NCBI GenBank assembly: GCA_029973975.1
Contig: JARKQF010000139.1
Span: 1-43,786, forward strand
Direction of reading: 5' to 3'
From: Paludibacter sp.
GTDB lineage: Bacteria > Bacteroidota > Bacteroidia > Bacteroidales > Paludibacteraceae
DNA: 43,786 nt
The notes below the pieces were generated by a model that searched no databases, was not told the origin of the DNA, and saw only the letters and a list, made by a program, of their open reading frames with translations. Shown piece after piece: positions 15-13,059 of the stretch. A program made the translations under genes and the position numbers. Numbering within the stretch: position 1 is the first letter of the stretch; each line of letters begins with the position of its first letter.

Positions 15-62
15 TTCCTCACATTTTCGAAACATTTTTGTAATGCACCATCTTTACTTTTG
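15..62 (+). promoter_or_regulatory. Putative Pho-box promoter of the lipoprotein gene at 102
   Basis: A -7 box TACTTTTG lies at 55-62. Upstream are three in-phase 11-bp units: TTCCTCACATT (15-25), TTCGAAACATT (26-36) and TTTGTAATGCA (37-47). The last unit ends 7 nt before the -7 box, the same geometry as at the four other promoters listed. The TTTG in this unit is only 14 nt from the -7 box, too close for the usual Bacteroidota -33 element (19-21 nt), so an activator probably replaces -33 recognition. Assignment to PhoB is inference from the phoB and pit promoters, which share the motif. Confidence 0.6.
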
Positions 63-101
63 CAGCGATATTTCATGTCAAAAAATTAATTTGAAACAAA
101 A

Positions 102-1502
102 ATGAGAAAATTATTGCTGAATTTTGCTGTTGTATTGCTGAGTGCAATCACCGTATTTTCTTCCTGTGAAGAAAAAGTGGATCCGGATGCAGACCTGAAG
201 GAAAATCCTTATGAGGCTATTATTAAAACAAAAATTACCGGTACCCGTAATTTCGTGAAAGATTCTGTTTATATCCTGATCGGACAAATCAACGTGGAGG
301 GTGTATTGAATATCGAGCCGGGAACTATTATTAAAGGCGATAAGAAAACGAAAGGTACGTTGGTTGTTGTGCCTGGTGGACAAATATTTGCAGAAGGTAC
401 TCCAAATCAACCCATTGTGTTTACTTCGCGCATGAAGCCGGGCGAAAGGGCCGCAGGTGACTGGGGTGGTGTAATCTTGGTTGGAAAAGCGCCGGTTAAT
501 CAGTCGAACGCGACAGTTGAAGGGTTATCGAATCCGGTTGAGTATGGAACGGCCGCAATTCCGGAAAGAAATGAAAATGACAATTCAGGAGTGCTGAAAT
601 ATGTGCGTATCGAATTCTCGGGTATAGCTTTGCAACCTGATAAAGAAACGAACGGTTTGACGATGTGTGCTGTGGGAAAAGGAACGGAGATTTCTCATGT
701 TCAGGTTTCTTATGGTGGCGACGATTCTTTTGAATGGTTCGGCGGCAATGTGAATGCCAAATATCTGATTGCTTATCTGGGGCTTGACGACGATTGGGAT
801 GTTGACTTCGGATATTCCGGCAATGTGCAGTTTGGACTGAGCGTGCGGAATCCCCGTGTGGCCGACGTATCGGCATCCAATGGTTTTGAATCGGATAATG
901 ATGGCAGTGGATCGGCAGCTTCCCCGAAAACATCAGCTGTTTTTTCTAACATGACAGTTATTGGTCCACTGAAAACCACAAGTGATAAAAATGTGAATGC
1001 CAACTATGGTGCAGCCATGCATTTGCGTCGTAATACATCTATCTCCATCTTTAACTCGGTATTTGCCGGATGGCACACAGGATTGTTGCTCGATGCAACT
1101 ACCACTTATACAAATGCTACAAATGGTGATATGGCTTTACAGAATATAGCTGTTGTAGGTATCAAGGGCAAAGCGCTTGCAGGTGCTGCCGGTGTGACGG
1201 ACGAGAATGCTACTGCTTTCTTTAACACGCAGGCTTTCAATAATTCAATCATAGCCACTGTGGCAGATGCAAAAATCTCAAATTCATTCTTCAATGCATC
1301 GAAAGAGGGTAGCGAAGCGATTCCATCTTCTTTCCTGCCGGAAACCGGTTCTCCGCTGTTAAATACCGGAGCTTTTGCTCATGCTAAGTTGCAAAATGTT
1401 TTCTTTGATAAAACGGCAACCTACAAAGGCGCTTTCGGAGCAAGCGACTGGACAAAAGAGGCCTGGGTGAATTTTGATCCTCAAAATACCAACTATAGAT
1501 AA
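102..1502 (+). CDS. Surface lipoprotein with beta-rich (beta-helix-like) body, putatively phosphate-regulated
   Basis: 466 aa. A lipoprotein signal ends in FSSC with Cys22, followed by acidic residues (EEKVDPDAD), as in Bacteroidota lipoproteins exported to the cell surface. The body is rich in Gly, Asn and Thr and short beta-forming stretches (INVEGVLNIEPGTIIKGD, then repeated N-x-x-V/I-x-G patterns), suggesting a right-handed parallel beta-helix; no catalytic motif is visible. Proteins of this type are often annotated as hypothetical or wrongly as multidrug transporters, and in other Bacteroidota often sit next to TonB-dependent receptors. I cannot see what lies upstream of the window. The promoter at 15-62 has the same phased repeats as phoB and pit, which suggests induction at low phosphate. 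A hairpin terminator follows at 1570. Substrate or partner is unknown. Confidence 0.75.
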   Translation: MRKLLLNFAVVLLSAITVFSSCEEKVDPDADLKENPYEAIIKTKITGTRNFVKDSVYILIGQINVEGVLNIEPGTIIKGDKKTKGTLVVVPGGQIFAEGTPNQPIVFTSRMKPGERAAGDWGGVILVGKAPVNQSNATVEGLSNPVEYGTAAIPERNENDNSGVLKYVRIEFSGIALQPDKETNGLTMCAVGKGTEISHVQVSYGGDDSFEWFGGNVNAKYLIAYLGLDDDWDVDFGYSGNVQFGLSVRNPRVADVSASNGFESDNDGSGSAASPKTSAVFSNMTVIGPLKTTSDKNVNANYGAAMHLRRNTSISIFNSVFAGWHTGLLLDATTTYTNATNGDMALQNIAVVGIKGKALAGAAGVTDENATAFFNTQAFNNSIIATVADAKISNSFFNASKEGSEAIPSSFLPETGSPLLNTGAFAHAKLQNVFFDKTATYKGAFGASDWTKEAWVNFDPQNTNYR

Positions 1503-1569
1503 TACTAGAGAAATAAATCGATGTTTGTAATTTAACTTCAGGAGAAAGGAAGCTGGCCTTCCTGGTTTT

Positions 1570-1598
1570 AAAGTGCGGAACAATGGTTCTGCACTTTT
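1570..1598 (+). terminator. Hairpin terminator after the lipoprotein gene
   Basis: Arms AAAGTGCGGAAC (1570-1581) and GTTCTGCACTTT (1586-1597) pair with one mismatch around the loop AATG; a short T run closes the right arm. It lies about 70 nt after the stop at 1502. Confidence 0.6.
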
Positions 1599-1650
1599 GT
1601 AATACATATTAAATTTTCCGGAAGTGGTACGGTTGTGCCGGATACAGCGT

Positions 1651-1658
1651 TATATTTG
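1651..1658 (+). promoter_or_regulatory. -7 box of the YwqK-type gene
   Basis: TATATTTG matches the Bacteroidota -7 consensus TAnnTTTG, about 70 nt before the preferred ATG at 1729. No good TTTG 19-21 nt upstream is seen, and the phased 11-bp repeats found at the neighbouring promoters are absent here. Confidence 0.45.
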
Positions 1659-1728
1659 CAACAATAATCCGGATTTTAACTACTAAAGGCTCAATAAAAA
1701 CATGATATACATGAGAAAAATAATAAAC

Positions 1729-2196
1729 ATGAGAACAAAATACCTGTTTATTTTACTGTTAAGTTGTTCAGGTTTGTTTGCACAGCAGAACTCCATAGTA
1801 ATCAGCAATGGCATTTTCTTTACCGATGCTACACAAACAAAATTATATAGTGGTGAATATAAAGAGTTTTATGAAAATGGAGCATTGAAAGTGGAAATGA
1901 ACATCCGCGACGGGAAACCCGAAGGGGCTTACATTGTTTATTTCCCGAATGGTCGTCCGAATGAAGTGAGGGCATACCGCAATGGTGAGTTTCATGGTAT
2001 CTGGAGAACCTATAACGAAACAGGTATGCTGATAGCAGAAGCGGAATACCGAAACAACAAAAAACATGGTACCTGGCACGTGTGGGATGATACCGGCATT
2101 ATGCGCTATGAAATGCAATACAGTAACGGAAAAAAATCCGGCATCTGGTATATGTGGGATGAAAAAGGCAAATTAATCTCCGAAAAACAATATTAA
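1729..2196 (+). CDS. Secreted YwqK/MORN-like repeat protein
   Basis: 155 aa from the ATG at 1729. In-frame ATGs at 1702 and 1711 would extend the N-terminus, but the 1729 start gives a clean signal peptide ending LFAQQ. After it come about five imperfect repeats of roughly 23 aa with the pattern Y-x-N-G-x-x-x-x-E/G-x-x-Y-x-x-G-K-x-x-G-x-W (YENGALKVEMNIRDGKPEG, YNETGMLIAEAEYRNNKKHGTW, WDDTGIMRYEMQYSNGKKSGIW). This is the YwqK-type repeat, which databases often call an antitoxin, but no toxin partner is present, so that label should not be taken literally. It is a probable periplasmic or surface protein of unknown role, with its own -7 box. A palindromic repeat follows immediately. Confidence 0.75.
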   Translation: MRTKYLFILLLSCSGLFAQQNSIVISNGIFFTDATQTKLYSGEYKEFYENGALKVEMNIRDGKPEGAYIVYFPNGRPNEVRAYRNGEFHGIWRTYNETGMLIAEAEYRNNKKHGTWHVWDDTGIMRYEMQYSNGKKSGIWYMWDEKGKLISEKQY

Positions 2197-2198
2197 AT

Positions 2199-2230
2199 TT
2201 GTAGAGACGCATGGCCGTGCGTCTCTACAA
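2199..2230. repeat. Perfect 13-bp palindromic repeat (GTAGAGACGC type)
   Basis: TTGTAGAGACGCA (2199-2211) and TGCGTCTCTACAA (2218-2230) are perfect inverse copies around the 6-nt loop TGGCCG. The stem is GC-rich in an AT-rich spacer directly after the stop at 2196. I recall closely similar GTAGAGACGC...GCGTCTCTAC palindromes as dispersed repeats in several bacterial phyla, so this may be a mobile or REP-like element that also acts as a terminator. There is no T run. Confidence 0.7.
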
Positions 2231-2235
2231 TGGTT

Positions 2236-2294
2236 TATTTCACATTATTGTATAAACTCTGTCACATTTTTGTAATAATGTCGCCTTATTTTTG
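2236..2294 (+). promoter_or_regulatory. Putative Pho-box promoter of the small secreted protein at 2335
   Basis: The -7 box TATTTTTG is at 2287-2294. Phased 11-bp units upstream are TATTTCACATT (2236), ATTGTATAAAC (2247), TCTGTCACATT (2258) and TTTGTAATAAT (2269-2279); the last ends 7 nt before the -7 box. The 13-mer ACATTTTTGTAAT at 2264 also occurs at 32 upstream of the first lipoprotein, exactly 10 nt before the -7 box in both. Confidence 0.6.
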
Positions 2295-2334
2295 TATCGT
2301 AAAAATGTAAAACAACGATACAAAACATATCAAA

Positions 2335-2676
2335 ATGAAAAAAGTAATTCTATTGGTTATCGCGACATTGTTGGCATTCAGCAATAGCAACGCAAAAGGA
2401 AAAATTGAACAGGATATGCTTGTTGAGGTAGCTGCTTCAGGAAGTAAATTGCATGGCGTGGTACTCGATAAGCAAACTAATGAAAGTCTGGCAGGTGTTG
2501 CTGTGTATGTTGACGGACAAAAAGTGTATACGGATTTTGATGGAAACTTCACATTTAACAATATCTCGAAAGGAAAATATGAAGTTAAAATAAGCATGAT
2601 CTCTTATCAGGATCAAACTATAACAGTAGATACCAATAAAAACAAACCGCTTGAAATTCAGCTTAGTCAGCGTTAA
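2335..2676 (+). CDS. Small secreted protein: stand-alone carboxypeptidase-regulatory-like domain
   Basis: 113 aa. A signal peptide (about residues 1-20, ending near SNSNAKG) is followed by one beta-sandwich domain at about 38-112. The start KLHGVVLDKQTNESLAGVAVYVDGQKV and the centre DGNFTFNNISKGKYEVKIS are typical of the CarboxypepD_reg-like domain that normally forms the N-terminal extension of Bacteroidota TonB-dependent receptors; here it stands alone. The receptor encoded at 10178-12973 carries the same kind of domain. The gene has its own Pho-box-like promoter and its own terminator, so it is a monocistronic unit just upstream of phoB. The function is unknown; a role at the outer membrane during phosphate limitation is inference. 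Confidence 0.7.
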   Translation: MKKVILLVIATLLAFSNSNAKGKIEQDMLVEVAASGSKLHGVVLDKQTNESLAGVAVYVDGQKVYTDFDGNFTFNNISKGKYEVKISMISYQDQTITVDTNKNKPLEIQLSQR

Positions 2677-2700
2677 GATATTATATTTAATTTAATTGAG

Positions 2701-2734
2701 GCTGTTTCGTGAAAAGAACGAAACAGCTTTTTTT
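2701..2734 (+). terminator. Rho-independent terminator
   Basis: A perfect 10-bp stem, GCTGTTTCGT (2701-2710) with ACGAAACAGC (2718-2727), has a 7-nt loop and is followed by seven Ts. It separates the small secreted protein gene from phoB. Confidence 0.85.
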
Positions 2735-2794
2735 GTTGTGGTTGGTATTGCTGTTTCTCAGTATTGTATTGATAATCATAGAAAATCATGTACA

Positions 2795-2853
2795 TTTGTA
2801 ATATGAATGTAATATCTATTACATGTTGTCGAAATATTAACGAACTAAATTTG
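2795..2853 (+). promoter_or_regulatory. Putative Pho-box promoter of phoB (autoregulation)
   Basis: The -7 box TAAATTTG is at 2846-2853. In-phase 11-bp units upstream are TTTGTAATATG (2795), AATGTAATATC (2806), TATTACATGTT (2817) and GTCGAAATATT (2828-2838); the last ends 7 nt before the -7 box. The two distal units share TGTAATAT with exact 11-bp spacing. PhoB-family regulators bind 11-bp direct repeats (7-bp half site plus 4-bp spacer), so autoregulation is a reasonable inference. Confidence 0.6.
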
Positions 2854-2886
2854 TAACGGTTATTTATTCACGATTAATTTTTCAAT

Positions 2887-3576
2887 ATGAATCCTTACCG
2901 TATTTTAGTTGTAGATGATGAAGAAGATTTATGTGAGATTCTTCAGTTCAACCTTGAGACAGAAGGTTATGTCGTAGAAGTTGCATACAGTGCAGAAGAA
3001 GCCTTAAAACTGGATGTTTCATCCTTTCATCTGATATTACTGGATGTGATGATGGGCGAAATGTCCGGGTTTAAAATGGCCCGTTTGTTGCGCGACAACT
3101 CCCAAACAGCCAAGATTCCGATCATCTTCCTTACTGCCCGGGATACTGAGAATGACAAGTTGACCGGATTTAATATCGGTGCCGATGATTATATCCCTAA
3201 ACCTTTTTCCATAAGAGAAGTTGTGGCAAGGGTAAAAGCTGTGATTCGCAGGTATGCTGCACCTGAAGAAGAAAAACCGGAAGACAAGTTGCTGATGTAT
3301 GATGGCTTAGTTATGAATCTGGGTAATAAAAAGGTGGTCGTTGATGGGGAAGAAGTACAATTTACCAAGAAAGAGTTCGAAATTTTGAGGTTGTTTCTGG
3401 AGTACCGTAACCGGGTTTTTACACGTGATGAAATTTTATCACGCGTCTGGACGGAAGATGTAATTGTACTCGACCGTACAATAGATGTAAATATAACCCG
3501 TTTGAGAAAGAAAGTAGGCCAGTACGGAAAAAACATAGTAACTCGTCTGGGGTATGGTTACTGTTTTGAAAGCTGA
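2887..3576 (+). CDS. phoB: PhoB-like response regulator (OmpR family)
   Basis: 229 aa. The receiver domain (1-120) has the acidic pocket D10/D11, phospho-acceptor D53, T83 and K105 (the KPF motif). A winged-helix DNA-binding domain occupies about 130-229 and ends RTIDVNITRLRKKVGQYGKNIVTRLGYGYCFE, with the usual R-x-x-x-x-H/N-I-x-x-L-R-x-K pattern. It would act as a cytoplasmic transcription factor activated by the sensor kinase encoded 46 nt downstream. Its promoter carries the phased 11-bp repeats also found at pit, the TonB receptor and two surface-protein genes. The name PhoB rests on overall type and on the linked phosphate transporter; other OmpR-type regulators are possible, but the context favours phosphate control. 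Confidence 0.8.
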   Translation: MNPYRILVVDDEEDLCEILQFNLETEGYVVEVAYSAEEALKLDVSSFHLILLDVMMGEMSGFKMARLLRDNSQTAKIPIIFLTARDTENDKLTGFNIGADDYIPKPFSIREVVARVKAVIRRYAAPEEEKPEDKLLMYDGLVMNLGNKKVVVDGEEVQFTKKEFEILRLFLEYRNRVFTRDEILSRVWTEDVIVLDRTIDVNITRLRKKVGQYGKNIVTRLGYGYCFES

Positions 3577-3622
3577 AAAAGATTGAGATGTTTGTCCGGT
3601 AAAATTTTATCGGAAGACACGA

Positions 3623-5371
3623 ATGAAAATTAAATGTATGAAACTGAACAGGAGGTTGTTTTTGTATTTTTTCTCGACCTTTTTTATCCTGATGATTGTG
3701 GTCGGATTTTTCCAGTATCAGCGGGAAAAGGCGTTTCGTACGGAGCAACTGGATCAACTGTTGTCTACTTATAACCAAACAATTTATAAATTCATCGAAT
3801 TGAATCCATGGGACACAAAGTCTCTGTCTTCTTTTTTACAGGTCTTTCCCGACAGTAACCTCAGGGTGACAGTCATAGCGCCCGATGGTGGTGTTATGTA
3901 CGATTCTTATGTACCGGATGTCAGTCAACTTGAGAATCATATTGACCGGCCTGAAATTGCCGAAGCCATGGTCGATCCTTTAGGTAAAGGGGTATCTATA
4001 CGAAAATCGACATCAACTAATATCGATTTTTACTATTTAGCGCATAAATTTGATCATTTTTATGTGCGCAGTGCTTTGCCTTATAACATAGGACTGATTG
4101 TGATGCTGAAAGCTAATATGCATTTCCTGTACTTTATGGTTCTGGTGCTGTTGTTGGCTTCTCTGATGTTGTCTGTTATTTCCAAGCGTATAACACGTTC
4201 TATCGATCGCCTTCAGCTATTTCTTTCCAGTATTGAGAATGAAAAAGCTGTCGATTCGGAAATTGTTTTCCCGGAAGATGAGTTGGGACAAATCAGCAGT
4301 AATATCGTAAAAACGTATAAAAAACTCTGGAAAACTAAATCGCAGGTAAAAAAAGAGCGTGAGAAGCTGATTCAGCATCTTCAGATATCGCAGGAAGGGT
4401 TGGGGATATTTTCTGATGAAAAAAAAGAAATTCTGGTCAATTCACACTTTATATTGTATTCCAGAATCCTGACCGACACAAACCTCTACTCGGTTGAAGC
4501 ATTGTTTCTGATTCCTGAATTAGCTGAAATTAATGCTTTTGTTGATGAAGGGTTGCGAAGTAAAGAATTGAACCGCAAACGGATTACCATTGAGAAAAGC
4601 GGTAAAGTTTTTTTAATTCAATGTATTGTGTTTAAAGATGAAACTTTTGAAATTTCGATAAACGACATTACCGCTCAGGAACAGGAAAACCGGTTGAAAC
4701 GGCATTTGACTCAAAATATTTCTCACGAGTTGAAAACTCCGGTCAGCAGTATACTTGGATATATGGAAAGTATTGTTAGCAATCCAGATCTTACTCCGGA
4801 AAGACAACGGTTTTTTATTGAACGCTCCTTTCAGCAGGCGCAGCGTTTAACAGCTTTGTTACAAGATATTTCAACCTTGAATAAAATAGAAGAAAGTACA
4901 GCACTGTTTGAGAAAGAAATTGTAGATATTGCTGAAATTGTAAAAGATGTGTTGAATGATGTGCATCTACAACTTGAGGCTAAACGTTTTAAGGTGATAA
5001 ATAATTTTCCTGATGAATTAAAGATCATGGGGAACCGCTCACTGATCTATTCTATTTTCAGAAATTTGACTGATAATGCTCTGGCTTATGCCGGAACGAA
5101 TATAACCCTGGAAATGAGTTGTTATAGGGAAGATGAACAGTTTTATTATTTTTCTTTTTCTGATAACGGAAACGGTGTACCCGAAGAACATTTGGTTCGT
5201 ATTTTCGAAAGATTTTACCGGGTGGATAAGGGACGAAGCCGTAAAATGGGTGGAACTGGCCTGGGGCTTGCTATCGTTAAGAATGCAGTAATCCACCATG
5301 GCGGAACCATCACGGCAAAAAATATCAGTACAGGCGGACTGAACTATATTTTCTCATTAAAGAAAAACTGA
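3623..5371 (+). CDS. phoR: PhoR-like sensor histidine kinase
   Basis: 582 aa. TM1 is at about 12-30, a sensor region of about 130 aa follows, TM2 is at about 166-188, then a HAMP-like linker and a PAS-like region (about 250-355). The HisKA motif NISHELKTP has the phosphorylated His368. The ATPase domain has an N box (NLTDNA), G1 (DNGNGVPE), an F box (IFERFYRVDKG) and G2 (GGTGLGLAIV), so all kinase motifs are intact. It would autophosphorylate and control the PhoB-like regulator 46 nt upstream, with which it is co-transcribed. The start could also be the ATG at 3638. In E. coli PhoR reads phosphate through PstSCAB and PhoU; neither PstS nor a free PhoU is in this window, but the Pit protein has a PhoU-like tail. 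Confidence 0.8.
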   Translation: MKIKCMKLNRRLFLYFFSTFFILMIVVGFFQYQREKAFRTEQLDQLLSTYNQTIYKFIELNPWDTKSLSSFLQVFPDSNLRVTVIAPDGGVMYDSYVPDVSQLENHIDRPEIAEAMVDPLGKGVSIRKSTSTNIDFYYLAHKFDHFYVRSALPYNIGLIVMLKANMHFLYFMVLVLLLASLMLSVISKRITRSIDRLQLFLSSIENEKAVDSEIVFPEDELGQISSNIVKTYKKLWKTKSQVKKEREKLIQHLQISQEGLGIFSDEKKEILVNSHFILYSRILTDTNLYSVEALFLIPELAEINAFVDEGLRSKELNRKRITIEKSGKVFLIQCIVFKDETFEISINDITAQEQENRLKRHLTQNISHELKTPVSSILGYMESIVSNPDLTPERQRFFIERSFQQAQRLTALLQDISTLNKIEESTALFEKEIVDIAEIVKDVLNDVHLQLEAKRFKVINNFPDELKIMGNRSLIYSIFRNLTDNALAYAGTNITLEMSCYREDEQFYYFSFSDNGNGVPEEHLVRIFERFYRVDKGRSRKMGGTGLGLAIVKNAVIHHGGTITAKNISTGGLNYIFSLKKN

Positions 5372-5372
5372 A

Positions 5373-6578
5373 CTAATTGTTGTAGGCAACCCGGAAGCCT
5401 CTGGTACTATGATAACTGTCGGGGAAATGACTACGACGCATCGCAGAACGGGAATATAAACTGTTGATATACCAGCTTCCTCCGCGTGTAACTTTCATGG
5501 AACCCAATGCCGGTCCGGTTGGGTTAGTTTGTGCTGTTGTTGTATACATATCGTACCAGTCTCCGCACCATTCCCATACGTTTCCATGCATGTCATATAA
5601 GCCCCATGCGTTGGCAGGAAAAGAACCTACCTGACTTGTTCCGGTGGGTGATGTGGTATTCTGATTGGAGCAGCTTCCATAAGGCAACGCCCAATCGTAG
5701 CTTGCATCTGTATCAGAGAGACAATTGCCGGTGGAAAACGGGGTTGATGAACCGGCACGACAAGCATATTCCCATTCGGCTTCAGTCGGAAGTCTTCCTC
5801 CGGCATAGCGGGCAAACTCATCTGCACCATACCATGTTACATTGATAACCGGATGGTTTTCAAAACCCTTCACTGGTTCCCACCCTGTTGTCGTGTTAAA
5901 TGTCAGTCCTATTCTGGTTTCAGCAAGGATTAATACTTGTTCCGGATACAGTCCTGTACTGAATTTTCCATTACCCTTGACGTTGTTTGTGTTCAGAAAT
6001 AACGCAAATTGCTGATTGGTTATTTCATATTTGCTAAGTTTAAAAGCGTTCAATGTCACAGTGTGTTGGGTCTCATCATTGTTTCTGTTAGGTTCTGTAT
6101 TGGGACTGCCCATGACAAATGTTCCTGCCGGAATGGATACGGTTGAGATTTCAGGTACATAAGTTGAGAAAGCTACTTCATCGCCATAAAGGATTCCATT
6201 CTCATTAATTGCATAAGCCCTCACATAATACCTTAAATTAGGCTCAAGTCCGGTAATGTTGGAGATAAAATTACCTACACCGGCTCCGTCGCTTGTATGG
6301 TTGTCTTTGATGGTCGGATTGGGAGAAGTGCTCCAGCAGACTCCGCGCCCTGTAATGGTTACTTCAGCCCTGTTTTTTATTGTTCCGCCTGTATTTACAG
6401 ATGTGCGTATTGTTCCGCCGGACAGAGCGGACTCAATAGTGATGTTTGAAATGGGTTTTGTTGCTATGTTGGTCAGGAAACGAGGGTCGATAAATGATTC
6501 ACAACCACTTAACAATAAGACGATGACTATGGCTAAACTGTAAATCGCATTTTGTGAAGTAAAACCTCTTTTTTTCAT
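5373..6578 (-). CDS. Lipoprotein with FGE-sulfatase (SUMF1) fold, catalytic cysteines absent
   Basis: 401 aa from the ATG ending at 6578; an upstream ATG at 6626 would bury the lipoprotein signal. Lipobox LLSGC has Cys26. A fibronectin-III-like Bacteroidota domain follows (about 50-140, with RGVCWST and Y-Y-V-R-A-Y-A), then a SUMF1-type domain (about 150-401: PAGTFVMGS, LSKYEITNQQFALFLN, RLPTEAEWEYACRAG, GLYDMHGNVWEWCGDWY, RGGSWYI, STRGFRVA). In true formylglycine-generating enzymes the stretch after RGGSW holds two copper-binding cysteines; here it reads YINSLYS, so both are missing. It is probably a binding or structural protein rather than an oxidase, so it should not be paired with the sulfatase maturase at 17820. 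It converges on phoR, with stop codons almost touching. Confidence 0.8.
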   Translation of the reverse strand: MKKRGFTSQNAIYSLAIVIVLLLSGCESFIDPRFLTNIATKPISNITIESALSGGTIRTSVNTGGTIKNRAEVTITGRGVCWSTSPNPTIKDNHTSDGAGVGNFISNITGLEPNLRYYVRAYAINENGILYGDEVAFSTYVPEISTVSIPAGTFVMGSPNTEPNRNNDETQHTVTLNAFKLSKYEITNQQFALFLNTNNVKGNGKFSTGLYPEQVLILAETRIGLTFNTTTGWEPVKGFENHPVINVTWYGADEFARYAGGRLPTEAEWEYACRAGSSTPFSTGNCLSDTDASYDWALPYGSCSNQNTTSPTGTSQVGSFPANAWGLYDMHGNVWEWCGDWYDMYTTTAQTNPTGPALGSMKVTRGGSWYINSLYSRSAMRRSHFPDSYHSTRGFRVAYNN

Positions 6579-6792
6579 TGTAAAGTAATTTGGTAAGATT
6601 GTTTTAAAACAGGTAAATATATTCAATTGTATATTCTTCGTTTAATTGCCACAAAGATATGAAATTACCATGAAAATTAACTTCATTTTAGAGTTGTGTT
6701 AACAATATTTCAGATAATAATTGCGTAATTAATAATTGTAAGAATTGCAACGGAATAATGTCTCATTTAAAACGTGTTTTTTAAATATTTTT

Positions 6793-6800
6793 TATCTTTG
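6793..6800 (+). promoter_or_regulatory. -7 box of the SDR gene at 6851
   Basis: TATCTTTG matches TAnnTTTG. No clear TTTG lies 19-21 nt upstream and there are no phased Pho-like repeats. The 6579-6850 spacer is otherwise AT-rich with no recognisable element. Confidence 0.4.
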
Positions 6801-6850
6801 CAATAGCTTATTTTGCTGAAATGTCTTGTGTTTTAATTTTATAACTCATT

Positions 6851-7825
6851 ATGCGCTATTTTATTACCGGTTGTACCGGCTTTATTGGAATTCATCTTTG
6901 CAGGAAGTTAATTGCTGAAGGGCATGAAGTATTCGGATTGGTTAGGAACCCCGGAAAAATTCCATCTGATCTGTTGGGTAGGTTGAAAGAAATCAAAGGA
7001 GGGGTAGAGATTTTTGAACGTGCAGATTTGATTTTACCCGAAGTAGATGTCGTGATACACCTTGCAGGTGTGACCACGGGTCGTAACAGCAAAGATTATG
7101 AGCGTATGAATTATGAACCCGTGCTTCATCTGCTCGATTGCCTGAACAGGCAGCAGTGGAAGCCGAAACGTTTTATCCTGGCTTCATCGCTTGCTGCAGC
7201 TGGACCAAATATAAACGGGAAGGTTTTACGAGAATCTGATGTGTCCGCTCCGATTGAGCCGTATGGTGTAGCCAAACTCAGGGCGGAGCAACTACTTAGG
7301 TCACAATTGTTTCCAACGACAGCTTTTCGTCCGCCGGCAGTAATCGGGCCGGGTGATCCGGCTATGCTGACCCTTTTTAAAATGGTTAAAAAGGGTTTTG
7401 CTCCACTGCCATCGGGTAAAGTACAGTTGCTGAGCTATATTTATGTCGGCGATCTGGTGGAAGCCATTTACATCATGTCGAAAGAAAATAGTGAAGAACA
7501 TAAATTGTATTTTACAACTGCGGATGATGTAATTACCAACTATGATATAATCAGGGAGATTGCGACTTCTTTACAGAAAAAAGCCTTGATTGTGCGTATC
7601 CCGAAAGGGCTAATCTGGCTGATTATGGTTTTTTCTACAGCTATATCTTATGTGTTCCGGATTCCTAACTTTTATGATTACCGGCAATATAAGCAGATGA
7701 CGGCTCCGGCTTTCGTTTGTGCGGGTGAATTGTTGACAGCCGAAACAGGATGGAAAGCAAAAACCGGACTGGCTGAAGCCATCCGGTTAAGCGCTTTGGG
7801 ATATAAGGAACTCAAGTGGCTGTGA
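6851..7825 (+). CDS. NAD(P)-dependent SDR-family epimerase/dehydratase-like protein
   Basis: 324 aa extended SDR. The cofactor motif GCTGFIG is at residues 7-13, followed by VIHLAG and an active-site Tyr-x-x-x-Lys in PYGVAKLRAEQ, with the upstream Ser in LASSLAAAG. A C-terminal hydrophobic stretch (KGLIWLIMVFSTAISYVF) near residue 255 resembles the membrane-touching segment of 3-beta-HSD-like and UDP-glucose 4-epimerase-like homologues in Bacteroidota. The substrate cannot be told from sequence. It is transcribed alone and converges on the pit gene, with only 8 nt between the two stop codons. Confidence 0.8.
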   Translation: MRYFITGCTGFIGIHLCRKLIAEGHEVFGLVRNPGKIPSDLLGRLKEIKGGVEIFERADLILPEVDVVIHLAGVTTGRNSKDYERMNYEPVLHLLDCLNRQQWKPKRFILASSLAAAGPNINGKVLRESDVSAPIEPYGVAKLRAEQLLRSQLFPTTAFRPPAVIGPGDPAMLTLFKMVKKGFAPLPSGKVQLLSYIYVGDLVEAIYIMSKENSEEHKLYFTTADDVITNYDIIREIATSLQKKALIVRIPKGLIWLIMVFSTAISYVFRIPNFYDYRQYKQMTAPAFVCAGELLTAETGWKAKTGLAEAIRLSALGYKELKWL

Positions 7826-7833
7826 TATTCCTT

Positions 7834-10068
7834 CTATTGTTTCATTTTTACAAGTCTTTTTTGAGATTTCATCAGGTTGCTTGATTGCAAAGCGATGATT
7901 TTTGTTTCGTTTAGCAGGCTGAGGAACAATATACTGTTGCGTGTTCCCGAATCTTTGGATTTTGCTCTTTTGATCTGATTACGGGTTGCCTGCGCATAGT
8001 AATCGGCAATAAGATGTCTCTTTTCGAGTAGATTGTCAAATCGTGAATAATCCCAGGATTGAATCATCGATATGAAGTCAGATGCCACTTCAATAACCTG
8101 TTCGCTTAACTTTGTAAGGTCGTTTACTTGTTCTTTTGTGAATCCCTCGTGGTTATCATTGATGTATTTGAAGCTGGACTCGGTCATTACTTTGAGTGAT
8201 TTTGAGATTTCGTAAAAATAATCAATGACCTGAATGTAGAACTGACCTACCTCTACAGGAGCGCTTTCGAGTCGCTTGAGTGTTGGTACAACCTCATAAT
8301 GCCGGCGATTTTTGTACTTACGGTAAAGAAAATCTGCTTCTTTATGTAATTGATTGAGTTTTTTCCTGTCTTCATTGAACAATCCGTCTAACGTATCTCT
8401 GTAAATCCGGATTGTGGTTTCAATAGCTTCTTCCATCTCATTGGAGCAAGACTGAATCAGATCTGATTCGTTTTTGATTTCAAGCGTGGTTTCTTTGGCT
8501 TCCTCTTTGGCAACACGTTTTTTATGCACCATGGTAAATTGAATGATAAGAACGACCACGAGAATCAGTAGCCCAATGATAGCGTAAACACCACCGTACA
8601 TCAATAGAAATGCAACTGCTGCCGAGGCAGTGAAGGCTGCTACAGCCGTTAGGAACCATCCGCTGATTACGGTTAGTACCCCGGTAATCCGGTATACTGC
8701 GCTCTCGCGTCCCCATGCCCGGTCGGCCAGCGAGGAACCCATGGCAACCATGAATGTTACGTATGTAGTTGATAAAGGCAGTTTTAATGATGTCCCGAGG
8801 GAAATCAGCATGGCTGCAACTGTCAGATTGACTGAAGCTCGTATAAGGTCGAAGGATGGATCGTTTGGTTCTTTCTTTTCAAGGGGTCTAAAACGGCTTT
8901 CGATAAAATCCTTTACTTTTTGCGGAGTGATGTAATTCACAAATTTACCTATACTGAGTGCATTTCTGACCAGTGAACGAGATGCGCCGGTTGAGGAGAA
9001 TTGTTCAAGGCCTTCTCCTTGCCGGGAAAGATTTACTTCTGTTTTGGTAACCGTGCGGGATTTTTTGTTGAACCACAATGCCAGAACCATTATAATTCCG
9101 GAACCTAACAGGAACCTCCAGTCTACATTTACAGCTTCGGATAATCGTCCCATATACAAATTGTCCACGTTGCCGCCCTGAGCTACAAATTCTCCTGCAA
9201 ACTGATAAGAGCTAAGCCCCGCCATGAATACGCCAATGAAATTCACCAGGTCGTTTCCGGCAAATGAGAGCGCCAAAGCAGCAGTGCCGGAAAGGATGAT
9301 GATTTTCAGGATGTTAACTTTAAATGCATGTTGTAACAGAGCCATTAGCCCGGTCATGCCCAGGAATGTGTAAAGCAGGATGATGCCGGTGTGTTCATTG
9401 AGGTACTGCATACTTTCCCCGGAAATCAGCGTGGTGCTTTTCAACCCTTTCAGGATTGCAAAATAAGCAATGGCGGTAAGTGCAATTCCTCCCCAGAGGG
9501 CGCCGACATATTGAAATGATTTTTGGTAATTAAACGAGAAAATAATACGGGAAATATACATAACCACCGAACCGACAGCGAAGGAAAGCAACACGGAGAC
9601 AAAAATACCGGAGATGATTTTAAGTGCTTTGCCGGTATTAATATATTGTGTCAAATCGACCACCTCATTGTTTTGCCAGATAGTGAACAAAGAAACAGCA
9701 ACAGCCGCACCGAGCAATTCGAAAACCAGCGATACGGTTGTAGAAGTGGGTAATCCGAATGTATTGAAGATGTCTAGTAAAATTACATCAGTAATCATAA
9801 CAGCCAAAAATAGCATCATGATACTGGCAAAGGTGAATTTTTCAGGATAAAAAACCCCGCTTCGGGCGATTTCCATCATACCGGTAGAAAAGAAAGAGCC
9901 AATGATTACGCCAACTGAAGCTACGGTAAGAATGACCCATAAAGGAGCAACTCTGGACCCGACGCTTGAATTCAGAAAGTTTACGGCGTCGTTAGCAACT
10001 CCTACTACCAGGTCGAGTGTTGCCAGAGCCAGTAATACGAGTACGATGACAATGTAAATGCTATCCAT
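7834..10068 (-). CDS. Pit-type inorganic phosphate transporter with PhoU-like C-terminal domain
   Basis: 744 aa. The N-terminal part (about 1-510) is a multi-pass PHO4-family permease with both inverted half-signatures, GVANDAVNFLNSSVGSR near residue 23 and FAGNDLVNFIGVFMAG near 265, plus KLPLSTTYVTFMVAMGSSLADRAWG near 440. A cytoplasmic loop of about 80 aa splits the two halves. The last 210 aa form a soluble helical region resembling PhoU/DUF47 proteins. Pit proteins are low-affinity metal-phosphate:H+ symporters in the inner membrane; the tail may tie transport to signalling. Long Pit proteins of this kind occur in other Bacteroidota. The promoter at 10113-10171 carries the best-preserved set of phased 11-bp repeats in the window, so it is probably under PhoB control. 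It converges with the SDR gene. Confidence 0.88.
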   Translation of the reverse strand: MDSIYIVIVLVLLALATLDLVVGVANDAVNFLNSSVGSRVAPLWVILTVASVGVIIGSFFSTGMMEIARSGVFYPEKFTFASIMMLFLAVMITDVILLDIFNTFGLPTSTTVSLVFELLGAAVAVSLFTIWQNNEVVDLTQYINTGKALKIISGIFVSVLLSFAVGSVVMYISRIIFSFNYQKSFQYVGALWGGIALTAIAYFAILKGLKSTTLISGESMQYLNEHTGIILLYTFLGMTGLMALLQHAFKVNILKIIILSGTAALALSFAGNDLVNFIGVFMAGLSSYQFAGEFVAQGGNVDNLYMGRLSEAVNVDWRFLLGSGIIMVLALWFNKKSRTVTKTEVNLSRQGEGLEQFSSTGASRSLVRNALSIGKFVNYITPQKVKDFIESRFRPLEKKEPNDPSFDLIRASVNLTVAAMLISLGTSLKLPLSTTYVTFMVAMGSSLADRAWGRESAVYRITGVLTVISGWFLTAVAAFTASAAVAFLLMYGGVYAIIGLLILVVVLIIQFTMVHKKRVAKEEAKETTLEIKNESDLIQSCSNEMEEAIETTIRIYRDTLDGLFNEDRKKLNQLHKEADFLYRKYKNRRHYEVVPTLKRLESAPVEVGQFYIQVIDYFYEISKSLKVMTESSFKYINDNHEGFTKEQVNDLTKLSEQVIEVASDFISMIQSWDYSRFDNLLEKRHLIADYYAQATRNQIKRAKSKDSGTRNSILFLSLLNETKIIALQSSNLMKSQKRLVKMKQ

Positions 10069-10112
10069 CCCAAACTAATTAATTGATTAAATAATAATTG
10101 TTATTTTCGCTG

Positions 10113-10171
10113 CAAAGGAATGAAATACATGTTACAAACATATTACAAAGTGATGTAAAAAATGTAACAAA
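10113..10171 (-). promoter_or_regulatory. Putative Pho-box promoter of the Pit transporter
   Basis: Read on the minus strand from 10171: TTTGTTACATT, TTTTACATCAC, TTTGTAATATG, TTTGTAACATG (ending at 10128), then 7 nt, then the -7 box TTCCTTTG (10120-10113; one mismatch to TAnnTTTG) and GCAGCG. Units 3 and 4 differ at one position. The same GCAGCG follows the -7 box of the lipoprotein gene at 102. Confidence 0.7.
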
Positions 10172-10177
10172 GTAAAA

Positions 10178-12973
10178 TTATTTCAATGTCCAGTTAACTC
10201 CTAATGACCAGGTTCTTCCTGTGTTGTAGCGTTTGTTGGTGAGTGTTACTCTTTGATTTGTTCCATTTTGTTGATATTCATAGGTTTGCTGCGTAAGATG
10301 ATCCTGTGACAACAAGTCTTTGATACCAAACTTCAGTTCAATTTGCTTCCCCAGTTTTTTATTGAAAGTGAAGTCTATTACATGACGGGGCATTTCGTAA
10401 ATATCAGGGACTTCTACTATAGCTTGATTTAGCTGTGCGGCAACCAGAATTCTTTTTCCTGTCACATTATACATGAGAGATGCAGACAGACCATTATTCT
10501 CCGGTTGATAATATAAGCCGATGTTTACAACATAGGGTGACTGACCCTGTAACGCTCTGTTTCGCTCAGTTTCCTGATCTTCAAATTCCACCATACTGGA
10601 AATTAAAGAAGCGTTCAGATTGACATTCAGGTTTTTTAAACCGATGAAGGCAAGTGATTTTTTTATTTCAAGTTCAAGTCCGATGTTGGTTGCTCCTTTG
10701 GCGTTGTTGAAGGAAAAGAGCGAGCCCTGTCCGATGCTTACCATTTCTATCGGATTCCTGAAGTGTTTGTAAAACGCAGCTAAGGTAAATGTTTCACCCG
10801 GAGTAGGGTAGTGTTCAAAACGAAAATCGATGTTTTGAATGCTTGCAACCTTTAAATCAGGATTTCCTACAATCGAGTTCTTTTCAGTAAAATCGTAATA
10901 AGTTAATGGAGCTATCTCTCTGAATTCCGGTCGATTGATGCTGCGGGAATAAGCGATTCTGAGTAAACTTTTTTCGTTAATATTGTATGAAGTATTCAAT
11001 GAAGGAAAGAAATCAATCTCTGGATTGTCGACTCTTACAGGTGCACTTGCGTGATAATAACCTTGTAGCATGAGGCGGTTGAATTCAGCCCTTAGTCCGG
11101 CGTTGATGTTGAAATTACCTAAAGGCAAAACCAATGCAGCATAACCGGCGGATAACCAGTTCTGAGCTGTGTATGCGTTGGCGATATTGGTTTGTTCGTC
11201 GGCGCTGATTACCTTGCCGGTACCCAGATAAGGTTCTGTAAAAAGAGATTCAAAAGGCAACTGGTTGATTTCAGCAGTGCTCAGGTTGCCGTAAGCATTC
11301 CGGTAGGTGATGCTTCTTTCTCTGAAATTTCTGGTTTTGAATTCATTATAAAGTCCTGCTTTTATAGTAGATTGTTGGTTAATCAGGTTGATTTTCCTTT
11401 CGCGATTCAGGACGGCAGTAACTACATATTCATGGTTGGTCATGTACAAACGCCCGAGTTCATTGATGCTGGGGACATCCGGTAAGACATACTGGTAAAT
11501 GCCGGGAGATACTTCTTTATTGCTACGGTTCTGCCGGTTAGGTTCCATCCGGTTGGCGTAGGCAAGGCCTATGTTCCAGTCAAGCAGGTTGTCGTCCATG
11601 TTTCTGACTCTATGATTTCCACTCAGCTGACCGGAATAAGTCGTTCTGGAAGAGTATTGATTGCTGAAATACTGAAAGTTACTCATTCTGTAATTGTTCC
11701 ATCCTTCCGTATTGGCTGTTTTATCGATGCCAATCTGGTTTAACAGGTTTTTAAATTCCAACCTTGTTCCTTCCGAATTTTGATAGGACCAGTTGTGTAA
11801 AATGCCGATTTTAAAATCGCGGGAATAAATATCCGACGTATAGCGGTATAAATAGATGGGGGTATCATTTGCTTCGTCATATCTTTCGTACATGTAATTC
11901 AACATGTTGTTGCGGGTGCTGTAAGAATTACTATAACTTACCGATGTCATGGTCCCGAGCCGGGCGCCAAAGTCTAAATTCCATTTCTTTCCCATCGAAA
12001 ATGAAAGTTTCTGATTTGGAAGTGCAATCAACGGTTGAGCAATCCATTGGGATGGTAATTGTAATGCAGCTGCATCTCTTTGGGTTATGGAGATTTCATT
12101 CAGATTGGCCGGAAAACCGGCTGGTAATGCACGATTGACAGAGCCCAAACCGAATAGATCCATCGGCATTAAATCCGGTAACAACATTTCTTTAAAAGTG
12201 GTTACATCATTATAGGCGACCCCGTATTCTACCTGCATGAAATCATCATCCGGAATGTTTTTAGTTGTGATTTTAATAAAACCTCCTGTAGCTTCTGCCG
12301 CATGTTCTGCTGATCCGGTTTTATAAATTAATAAATTGTCGATCATGTTACTGGGGATGGCGTCAAAGGAAAATGCCTTTACGTCCGTTTCGCTGCTTGG
12401 CGTTGCCGCATTGTTGAGCCAAACGTTGTTGTAGCGTTGATTCAGACCTCTGACAATGATGAAGCGATTGTCCTGAATGGTTACGCCGGGTATCCTTTTT
12501 ACGACTTCGGAAGCGTCTCTGTCGAGCGTTCTTCCTATTTGCTGAGATGAGATGCCGCTAACCACCTGGAGAGAAGTCCGGACACTCCTGAGCATCGACA
12601 GATCTGTGTCGGTTTTCATACGGGCCACAACCTGTACGCTTTCGAGTTCCATGGAAGCTTCTTCCATCTCAATATTGAGTATGGCTGGCTGATTTCTTGT
12701 AACGATTATATCCGTAATTTTACGTGTGGTGTATGATACATAGGAAACGATGAGCGTATATTTACCCGGTGCGATTTTAATTTCAAAATTACCGTCGATA
12801 TCAGCCGTTGTTCCGGTGGTAGTTCCCTCGACAAGGATCGCTGCACCGGTGAGAGGTTCGTTGTATTTCCGGTCGGTAACAGTCCCTTTGATAACAGACT
12901 GAGCCTGCATGGGGACGGAGATTGTAATGAGAAACAGAATGATGGATAAATAAAAAAATTGACCTTTCGTCAT
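10178..12973 (-). CDS. TonB-dependent outer-membrane receptor, putatively phosphate-regulated
   Basis: 931 aa from the ATG ending at 12973. An upstream in-frame ATG at 13003 lies inside the -7 box (13001-13008) and cannot be in the mRNA. The signal peptide ends PMQAQS; a carboxypeptidase-regulatory-like domain covers about residues 27-110 (IKGTVTDRKYNEPLTGAAILVEG, DIDGNFEIKIAPGKYTLIVSYVSY). Then come the plug (about 120-240, with RIPGVTIQDNRFIIVRGLNQRYNNVWLNNA) and a long beta-barrel with typical Bacteroidota features (LRIAYSRSINRPEFREIAP near the middle of the barrel). It is not followed by a SusD homologue, so it is not a glycan PUL. Its promoter has the phased repeats seen at phoB and pit, suggesting uptake of a phosphorus compound or a metal needed under phosphate limitation. 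A TetR gene lies just upstream on the same strand. Confidence 0.88.
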   Translation of the reverse strand: MTKGQFFYLSIILFLITISVPMQAQSVIKGTVTDRKYNEPLTGAAILVEGTTTGTTADIDGNFEIKIAPGKYTLIVSYVSYTTRKITDIIVTRNQPAILNIEMEEASMELESVQVVARMKTDTDLSMLRSVRTSLQVVSGISSQQIGRTLDRDASEVVKRIPGVTIQDNRFIIVRGLNQRYNNVWLNNAATPSSETDVKAFSFDAIPSNMIDNLLIYKTGSAEHAAEATGGFIKITTKNIPDDDFMQVEYGVAYNDVTTFKEMLLPDLMPMDLFGLGSVNRALPAGFPANLNEISITQRDAAALQLPSQWIAQPLIALPNQKLSFSMGKKWNLDFGARLGTMTSVSYSNSYSTRNNMLNYMYERYDEANDTPIYLYRYTSDIYSRDFKIGILHNWSYQNSEGTRLEFKNLLNQIGIDKTANTEGWNNYRMSNFQYFSNQYSSRTTYSGQLSGNHRVRNMDDNLLDWNIGLAYANRMEPNRQNRSNKEVSPGIYQYVLPDVPSINELGRLYMTNHEYVVTAVLNRERKINLINQQSTIKAGLYNEFKTRNFRERSITYRNAYGNLSTAEINQLPFESLFTEPYLGTGKVISADEQTNIANAYTAQNWLSAGYAALVLPLGNFNINAGLRAEFNRLMLQGYYHASAPVRVDNPEIDFFPSLNTSYNINEKSLLRIAYSRSINRPEFREIAPLTYYDFTEKNSIVGNPDLKVASIQNIDFRFEHYPTPGETFTLAAFYKHFRNPIEMVSIGQGSLFSFNNAKGATNIGLELEIKKSLAFIGLKNLNVNLNASLISSMVEFEDQETERNRALQGQSPYVVNIGLYYQPENNGLSASLMYNVTGKRILVAAQLNQAIVEVPDIYEMPRHVIDFTFNKKLGKQIELKFGIKDLLSQDHLTQQTYEYQQNGTNQRVTLTNKRYNTGRTWSLGVNWTLK

Positions 12974-13000
12974 TGCAGTATTGTGTTTGAAATTTTGCTG

Positions 13001-13059
13001 CAAAACTACGAAACGTGTATTTCAGAAATAAGAAGAAGATGTTACAATCAGGCTACAAG
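13001..13059 (-). promoter_or_regulatory. Putative Pho-box promoter of the TonB-dependent receptor
   Basis: The -7 box TAGTTTTG is on the minus strand at 13008-13001. In-phase 11-bp units, read from 13059 downwards, are CTTGTAGCCTG, ATTGTAACATC, TTCTTCTTATT and TCTGAAATACA (ending 13016), then a 7-nt gap. The two distal units match TTTGTAACATG at 8 and 9 of 11 positions; the proximal two are weak. This is the weakest of the five sites. Confidence 0.45.

Follow-up and report, generated by a model that had tools for sequence, protein, structure and literature searches.

Introduction

Among the Bacteroidota, the described system closest to the locus analysed here is PhoRB of Bacteroides fragilis. 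According to the main text of the report, PhoB of this bacterium binds a 512-bp fragment of the pstC promoter in EMSA, and in the microarray of the phoB mutant at low phosphate, pstC, pstS and BF3715 (a phosphate permease) were reduced 428-fold, 103-fold and 52-fold, respectively; the wild-type data show neither a rise nor a fall of pstC and BF3715 at low phosphate (PMC3547664). The main text prints neither a motif nor a consensus for the binding site (PMC3547664). In Flavobacterium johnsoniae, phoBR is found together with TonB receptor and lipoprotein genes that are induced at low phosphate, and a search of the text of that study for the relevant terms returns no motif or Pho box (PMC8115612). 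PhoPR of Riemerella anatipestifer is described as a system responsive to phosphate starvation, in which PhoP goes up, and the DAP-seq motif given for this regulator, with TTTAACA, is likened by its authors to that of ArcA (PMC9603813). Apart from the latter motif, which differs from the one described below, we found no PhoB-box consensus for Bacteroidota in the open-access literature. The Pho box as a kind of site is known; for Bacteroidota it appears to be new within the open-access literature searched.

So what does the operator of a Bacteroidota PhoB look like? Here we analyse a 43,786-nt stretch of the draft genome of Paludibacter sp. (43.8 kb; "the window" hereafter) that encodes PhoB and PhoR next to a Pit transporter, a TonB-dependent receptor, a lipoprotein and a small secreted protein (referred to as 2335 after its start). 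The window resembles B. fragilis in having an orthologous PhoB and tandem arrays of 11-bp units, which in B. fragilis precede pstC, pstS and pit, the pst and pit genes being PhoB-dependent there (PMC3547664, main text), and it resembles F. johnsoniae in the types of genes that accompany phoBR (PMC8115612, in the text searched). The window genome differs from B. fragilis with respect to pstC, which a search of the draft (86% complete) did not find, so that Pit may be the main phosphate importer of this Paludibacter. In contrast to the Riemerella motif, the arrays of the window are tandems of TGTAAYA.

Five tandem arrays in the window

To score the arrays, we used a weight-matrix model that consists of two units, optional further units and a -7 box, and was trained on sequences upstream of phoB in 24 other genomes. 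The training set comprised 24 of the 30 representative phoB arrays; the window species and five misaligned or ill-fitting arrays were left out, so the four-unit model was trained on well-fitting arrays. The five promoters that the original prediction named as carrying phased 11-bp repeats are the five best-scoring sites on the two strands of the window (Table 1). Ten Markov-shuffled windows gave maxima of 12.6 with the two-unit model and 9.1 with the four-unit model, and the remaining matches listed for the window are shifted readings of the same five arrays, with the single exception of a site at position 90 (score 12.9) that spans the start codon of the lipoprotein gene.

Table 1. Candidate Pho boxes and associated genes of the window; scores are from the model trained on other genomes
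Feature	Position	Strand	Two-unit score	Four-unit score	Details
Two-unit Pho box, lipoprotein gene	26..62	+	26.1		TTCGAAACATT (26-36), TTTGTAATGCA (37-47), 7 nt, -7 box TACTTTTG (55-62)
Lipoprotein gene	102..1502	+			466 aa; no match in Pfam and NCBIfam profile searches; predicted fold discarded (pLDDT 38)
Two-unit Pho box, 2335	2258..2294	+	27.9	24.5	TCTGTCACATT (2258-2268), TTTGTAATAAT (2269-2279), 7 nt, -7 box TATTTTTG (2287-2294); two further, weaker units upstream at 2236-2257
2335, small secreted protein	2335..2676	+			CarboxypepD_reg-like domain (PF13715)
Four-unit Pho box, phoB	2795..2853	+	17.9	50.4	Units 1-2 TTTGTAATATG (2795-2805), AATGTAATATC (2806-2816); unit 3, inverted core TATTACA (2817-2823); unit 4 GTCGAAATATT, core CGAAATA (2830-2836); 9 nt after core, -7 box TAAATTTG (2846-2853)
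phoB, response regulator	2887..3576	+			NF053854, 364.5 bits (cut-off 270)
phoR, sensor kinase	3623..5371	+			NF053855, 784.2 bits (cut-off 500)
pit, phosphate transporter	7834..10068	-			PF01384; 744 aa
Pho box, pit	10113..10171	-	36.0		TTTGTAATATG (10149-10139), TTTGTAACATG (10138-10128); inverted-looking TATTTCA (10127-10121); -7 box TTCCTTTG (10120-10113); outlying unit TTTGTTACATT (10171-10161); sole exact two-unit match in its own genome
TonB-dependent receptor	10178..12973	-			ATG at 12973; CarbopepD_reg_2 and Plug domains
Four-unit Pho box, TonB receptor	13001..13059	-	20.6	31.4	Units 1-2 CTTGTAGCCTG (13059-13049), ATTGTAACATC (13048-13038); unit 3 weak; unit 4 TCTGAAATACA, core TGAAATA (13024-13018); 9 nt after core, -7 box TAGTTTTG (13008-13001)

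The unit had been proposed to read TTTGTAAYATG. What stands out from chance is the 11-bp phased pair and not the single unit, which at up to 2 mismatches occurs 49 times in the window vs 44.5 expected, and the unit is better written nnTGTMAYAnn, that is, a TGTMAYA core with a period of 11 bp and variable nucleotides between the cores. Each array comprises at least two direct repeats of this period, with a conserved 7-nt core similar to TGTCATA and 4 less conserved nucleotides; the third unit of the four-unit arrays fits better when inverted (see below).

Two layouts are discernible: two units, 7 nt and the -7 box at the lipoprotein gene, 2335 and pit, and four units, 7 nt and the -7 box at phoB and the TonB receptor. 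The original prediction had the proximal unit always ending 7 nt before the -7 box, a rule that holds for the units it named at the former three promoters and breaks down at the latter two, where it would place the -7 box at TGTTGTCG (phoB) and TATTTCTG (TonB receptor). The better boxes of these two promoters lie 22 bp, or two units, further downstream, and it is a weaker fourth unit that ends 7 nt ahead of each of them. The same register is found in the relatives: TTTG is located 35 nt past the second core in 66 of the 69 phoB promoters with a good tandem (25/28 representatives). In the 35 other Pho-type promoters that have such a tandem, the usual positions of TTTG are 13 nt (15 promoters) and 35 nt (11), with smaller counts at offsets 2, 24, 9 and 57. 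The two main offsets differ by exactly two units; as the shorter one, 13 nt, also agrees with the 11-bp period of the units, a further unit could produce it as well. Ten background genes have a good tandem too; of these, one has TTTG at 13 nt and none at 35 nt. Judging by this register, the arrays take the place of the -35/-33 element, at a fixed distance from the -10/-7 box.

Arrays in related genomes

Among 80 phoB upstream regions, taken from the closest PhoB relatives in the named genomes, 58 contain a tandem that scores at least 13 of 14 and 71 one that scores at least 12, most of them aligning in the four-unit layout; for the other genes of these loci, a set that includes some Pho-type genes, the respective counts are 25/935 and 49/935. 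With the full model, scores of at least 15 were obtained for 2 of 821 background genes and scores of at least 20 for none, or for 17/886 and 11/886, respectively, once the non-window reference families are put back, a list that includes families added for one high-scoring member (two porin families, PhoU and a phosphoesterase) along with Pst, Na/Pi and other porin genes found through their arrays.

Among the homologues of the window genes, counted with the window-species locus L031, a score of at least 20 was reached upstream of 10/10 for 2335, 5/7 for the lipoprotein gene, 7/13 for the TonB receptor and 1/2 for pit. No homologue of phoR (0/71, no array of its own) or of the MORN gene (0/7) scored as high. 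The two porin families reached this score in 7 of 8 cases, having been picked because a member scored high; the phosphoesterase did so in 1/9 (5/9 at a score of at least 15), and within the 80 phoB loci the counts are 1/13 for PhoU, 2/26 for PstC-type and 0/8 for PstS-type genes. An array precedes the long form of the Pit gene in all six genomes searched from Bacteroides, Phocaeicola and Parabacteroides, as well as in one Paludibacter and the genome of the window; none was found at the long Pit gene of locus L035 or at the short Pit genes (~340 aa; 0/3).

Beyond close relatives, the array before phoB is patchy, being present in 12 of 30 cases examined in the family sample (35 found) and in 4/13 of the order sample. 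At 29 non-window loci of PhoB-like genes elsewhere in the phylum, no tandem exceeded 12/14, a ceiling that carries little weight since these genes do not reach the cut-off for PhoB and have assumed starts. PhoR, searched for across the class (E up to 1e-90), was retrieved in 3 of 60 genomes, and inspection by eye of the region upstream of phoB in the one of these that lies outside the order detected no tandem.

Genome-wide searches

The original prediction called for a scan of the genome and its relatives, with arrays expected to cluster before phosphate genes, and both searches that we ran bear this out. The two-unit pattern, defined as the units plus TTTG at the right distance with at most 1 mismatch, yielded 27 matches in 41 genomes of the family vs 2 for the reversed pattern that served as the control. 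In eleven of the 27, the gene downstream belongs to a phosphate or phosphonate family (phoB, pit, two PstS, PstC, three Na/Pi, two Porin_O_P and PbfA), the start of one Na/Pi gene being 363 nt away and that of one PstS gene 341 nt away; the other 16 comprise three relatives of one of those porins, three 2335-like genes and ten without a known link. The window itself contributes two of the 27, at pit and 2335. Genomes of the family that encode PhoB contain strict matches in 17 of 30 cases vs 2/11 of those without it (Fisher p 0.031). The search for the four-unit pattern, with at most 3 mismatches, in 12 genomes of the genus produced 46 matches vs 1 in the control, several of the 46 being dispersed repeats of a single genome (G189). 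Relatives of phoB, pit, PhoU, porins, the TonB receptor or 2335 follow the array at 24 of the 30 four-unit loci returned, a count in which three loci are the window's own and two precede only weak relatives of phoB. By these searches, arrays lie upstream of phosphate-acquisition genes.

In the 3.56-Mb draft to which the window belongs (86% complete), both two-unit matches with at most 1 mismatch and all three four-unit matches with at most 3 mismatches (0 in the control) fall within the window. The lipoprotein site, with 3 mismatches to the two-unit pattern, is below both genome searches. At 2 mismatches, the two-unit search of this genome gave 5 matches, 3 of them in the window, vs 4 in the control; looser tandem searches (32 matches vs 21 in the control) returned mostly noise and were discarded. 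An exact two-unit tandem is also present elsewhere in this draft (C35:7352-7369, minus strand; L130), where the search for a downstream gene on the same strand found none.

Other members of the genus offer further observations. In genome G087, a two-unit box with 1 mismatch precedes a gene for the phosphonate ammonia-lyase PbfA (L210; NF049939, 670.6 bits vs 525), which, as far as a sequence match goes, suggests that phosphonate use is under PhoB control in this organism. A weaker tandem (2 mismatches) in G192 lies before a gene that by eye is polyphosphate kinase-like (L252). Genomes G193 (L259-L262) and G189 (L263-L264) contain dispersed palindromes whose arms, runs of 11-bp Pho-box-like repeats, point outward from a short centre; these could be mobile or decoy sites.

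Pho-box-like arrays in Bacteroides fragilis

In B. fragilis S82, arrays are found just upstream of pstC and in the divergent direction, where the adjacent gene, by the map in the B. fragilis report, is pstS (PMC3547664), and another array precedes pit, the sole PHO4-family gene found. The tandem search of this genome at up to 1 mismatch returned 19 matches vs 7 in the control, and several of the 19 are intragenic or obtain low scores with the full model. By eye, the genes that follow other matches encode a methyltransferase and two transporters, one of them of Na/Pi type. On contig C4, divergent tandems lie between two genes that by eye encode a transporter and a methyltransferase, with scores of 22.7 and 22.5 in the two models (L280). 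We disregarded an exact match before an outer-membrane protein gene (L125) whose TTTG is not in register.

Comparison with the Pho boxes of Escherichia coli and the puzzle of the third unit

The Bacteroidales models recognize the Pho boxes of E. coli. In 20 kb that include pstS, the two boxes of this gene rank first and second of 39,956 positions with the two-unit model, and the four-unit model places the pstS operator first of 39,880 positions, with a score of 13.4 and the next best at -1.2. In the 30-kb phoA-phoB stretch, the phoB site is second and the phoA site fifth of 59,956 positions, and the reversed-model control reached 10.5, above the 7.7 of the phoB site. Measured to the -10 boxes of phoB, phoA and pstS at the positions where we take them to be, the distance from the 7-nt core is 9 nt in E. 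coli, the same as in the arrays of the window.

The two-unit boxes of E. coli phoB and phoA share with the window the 11-bp direct repeats, a TGTCAYN core and the 9-nt spacing; they differ from it in that the core of the window is mostly TGTAAYA, as well as in the promoter element, the window having a Bacteroidota-type -7 box instead of a sigma70 -10. The closest counterpart of the phoB operator of the window, which in full reads TTTGTAATATG AATGTAATATC TATTACATGTT GTCGAAATATT AACGAAC TAAATTTG, is the E. coli pstS operator, TCTGTCATAAA ACTGTCATATT CCTTACATATA ACTGTCACCTG TTTGTCC TATTTTGC. Both consist of four units in one register, with 9 nt separating the fourth from the -10 or -7 box, and in both the third unit is deviant (TTACATA in pstS, TTACATG in phoB of the window). 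The four-unit form belongs to pstS in E. coli and to phoB and the TonB receptor in the window.

Unlike in the plain description of the E. coli boxes, the conserved third unit of the Bacteroidales phoB operators reads as inverted. In 24 representative operators, the inverted reading, set 2 nt after unit 2, has a mean of 7.42 bits, and the reading as an in-register direct repeat was rejected on its mean of -0.35 bits; by eye, the third unit before pit in Bacteroides and Phocaeicola is inverted too (TATGACA or TATGAAA). A tentative interpretation is that the units of double Pho boxes do not all point the same way and that PhoB binds them as forward-forward-reverse-forward, an arrangement that, together with the promoter spacing, might be ancient, given that it is kept at the phoB genes of the Bacteroidales and that E. 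coli pstS has the deviant TTACATA. We do not consider this the expected outcome. Together, units 2 and 3 of phoB and of the Bacteroides pit form a 16-bp palindrome, TGTAAYA-NN-TRTTWCA, which, along with the difference in bits between the inverted and direct readings, would be compatible with a second, dimeric regulator whose site is superimposed on the Pho box. Such a regulator seems unlikely, considering that its half-site would be the PhoB unit itself, that all 10 homologues of 2335 fit the two-unit layout better and that a similar unit occupies the third position in E. coli pstS.

The regulator and the nature of the arrays

Both products of the phoBR pair exceed the cut-offs of the respective NCBIfam models, that for PhoB being the Bacteroides model (Table 1); against the general PhoB model TIGR02154, the product of gene 2887 scores 213.5 bits, below the curated cut-off of 296.2. 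Aligned with E. coli PhoB, the protein of the window retains Thr194, Val197 and Arg201, which are reported as base-contacting in the text of the E. coli study (PMC3973317), and does not retain His198, Arg200, Arg219 and Glu191, the last of which is reported there for the sigma contact. Arg219 is replaced by Leu, with an Arg one position earlier, and Glu191 by Leu.

We estimate at roughly 90% the probability that the arrays are Pho boxes, the operators of the adjacent PhoB, which would control a mostly local regulon. This conclusion stems from the phosphate genes that follow the arrays in the relatives, from the arrays at pstC and pit of B. fragilis, and from the match to E. coli pstS in both sequence and spacing; the same three lines support the Pho box and local regulon of the original prediction. 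Could the arrays instead belong to another response regulator of the OmpR/PhoB family, with phosphate genes as only a part of its targets? Direct repeats are usual in this family, and TTTAACA is part of the DAP-seq motif of Riemerella PhoP, itself up when phosphate is scarce (PMC9603813, in the text available). This explanation is nevertheless very improbable in view of the genes downstream of the arrays, the array at phoB itself, the match to the E. coli Pho boxes, and the phoB dependence of pst and pit in B. fragilis together with the binding of PhoB to the pstC promoter (PMC3547664, main text). Still less credible is a constitutive promoter element or an AT-rich repeat that is no operator, for which the fixed distance to the -7 box and the dispersed 11-bp repeats of similar sequence in some members of the genus could be cited, against the rarity of scores of 15 in the background genes (2/821, or 17/886 with the added families put back).

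Under the Pho-box interpretation, phosphate starvation would cause PhoR to phosphorylate PhoB, dimers of which would occupy the 11-bp units in head-to-tail orientation where the -33 element would otherwise lie, and recruit RNA polymerase to a Bacteroidota -7 box of the TAnnTTTG type. At all five sites, the -7 box is positioned 7 nt past the last 11-bp unit, following a putative single box with two good units at the lipoprotein gene, 2335 and pit, and a putative double box of four units, as in E. coli pstS, at phoB and the TonB receptor. What the analysis shows directly is the sequence and register of the arrays, their conservation, the genes they precede and their match to E. coli; for the organism of the window, we infer PhoB binding, its dependence on phosphorylation, activation, the sigma contact and the response to phosphate.

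Implications

These results provide a usable Pho-box model for the Bacteroidales, including the gut Bacteroides, where PhoB is known and no binding site is printed in the text searched. With such a model, phosphate regulons become predictable from sequence, as exemplified by the blind match before the phosphonate lyase gene. The inverted unit inside the double Pho boxes is a question that can be put to test. Finally, the comparison with E. coli indicates that E. coli and these Bacteroidota set their PhoB units in one and the same register to the core promoter, notwithstanding their differing promoter elements.
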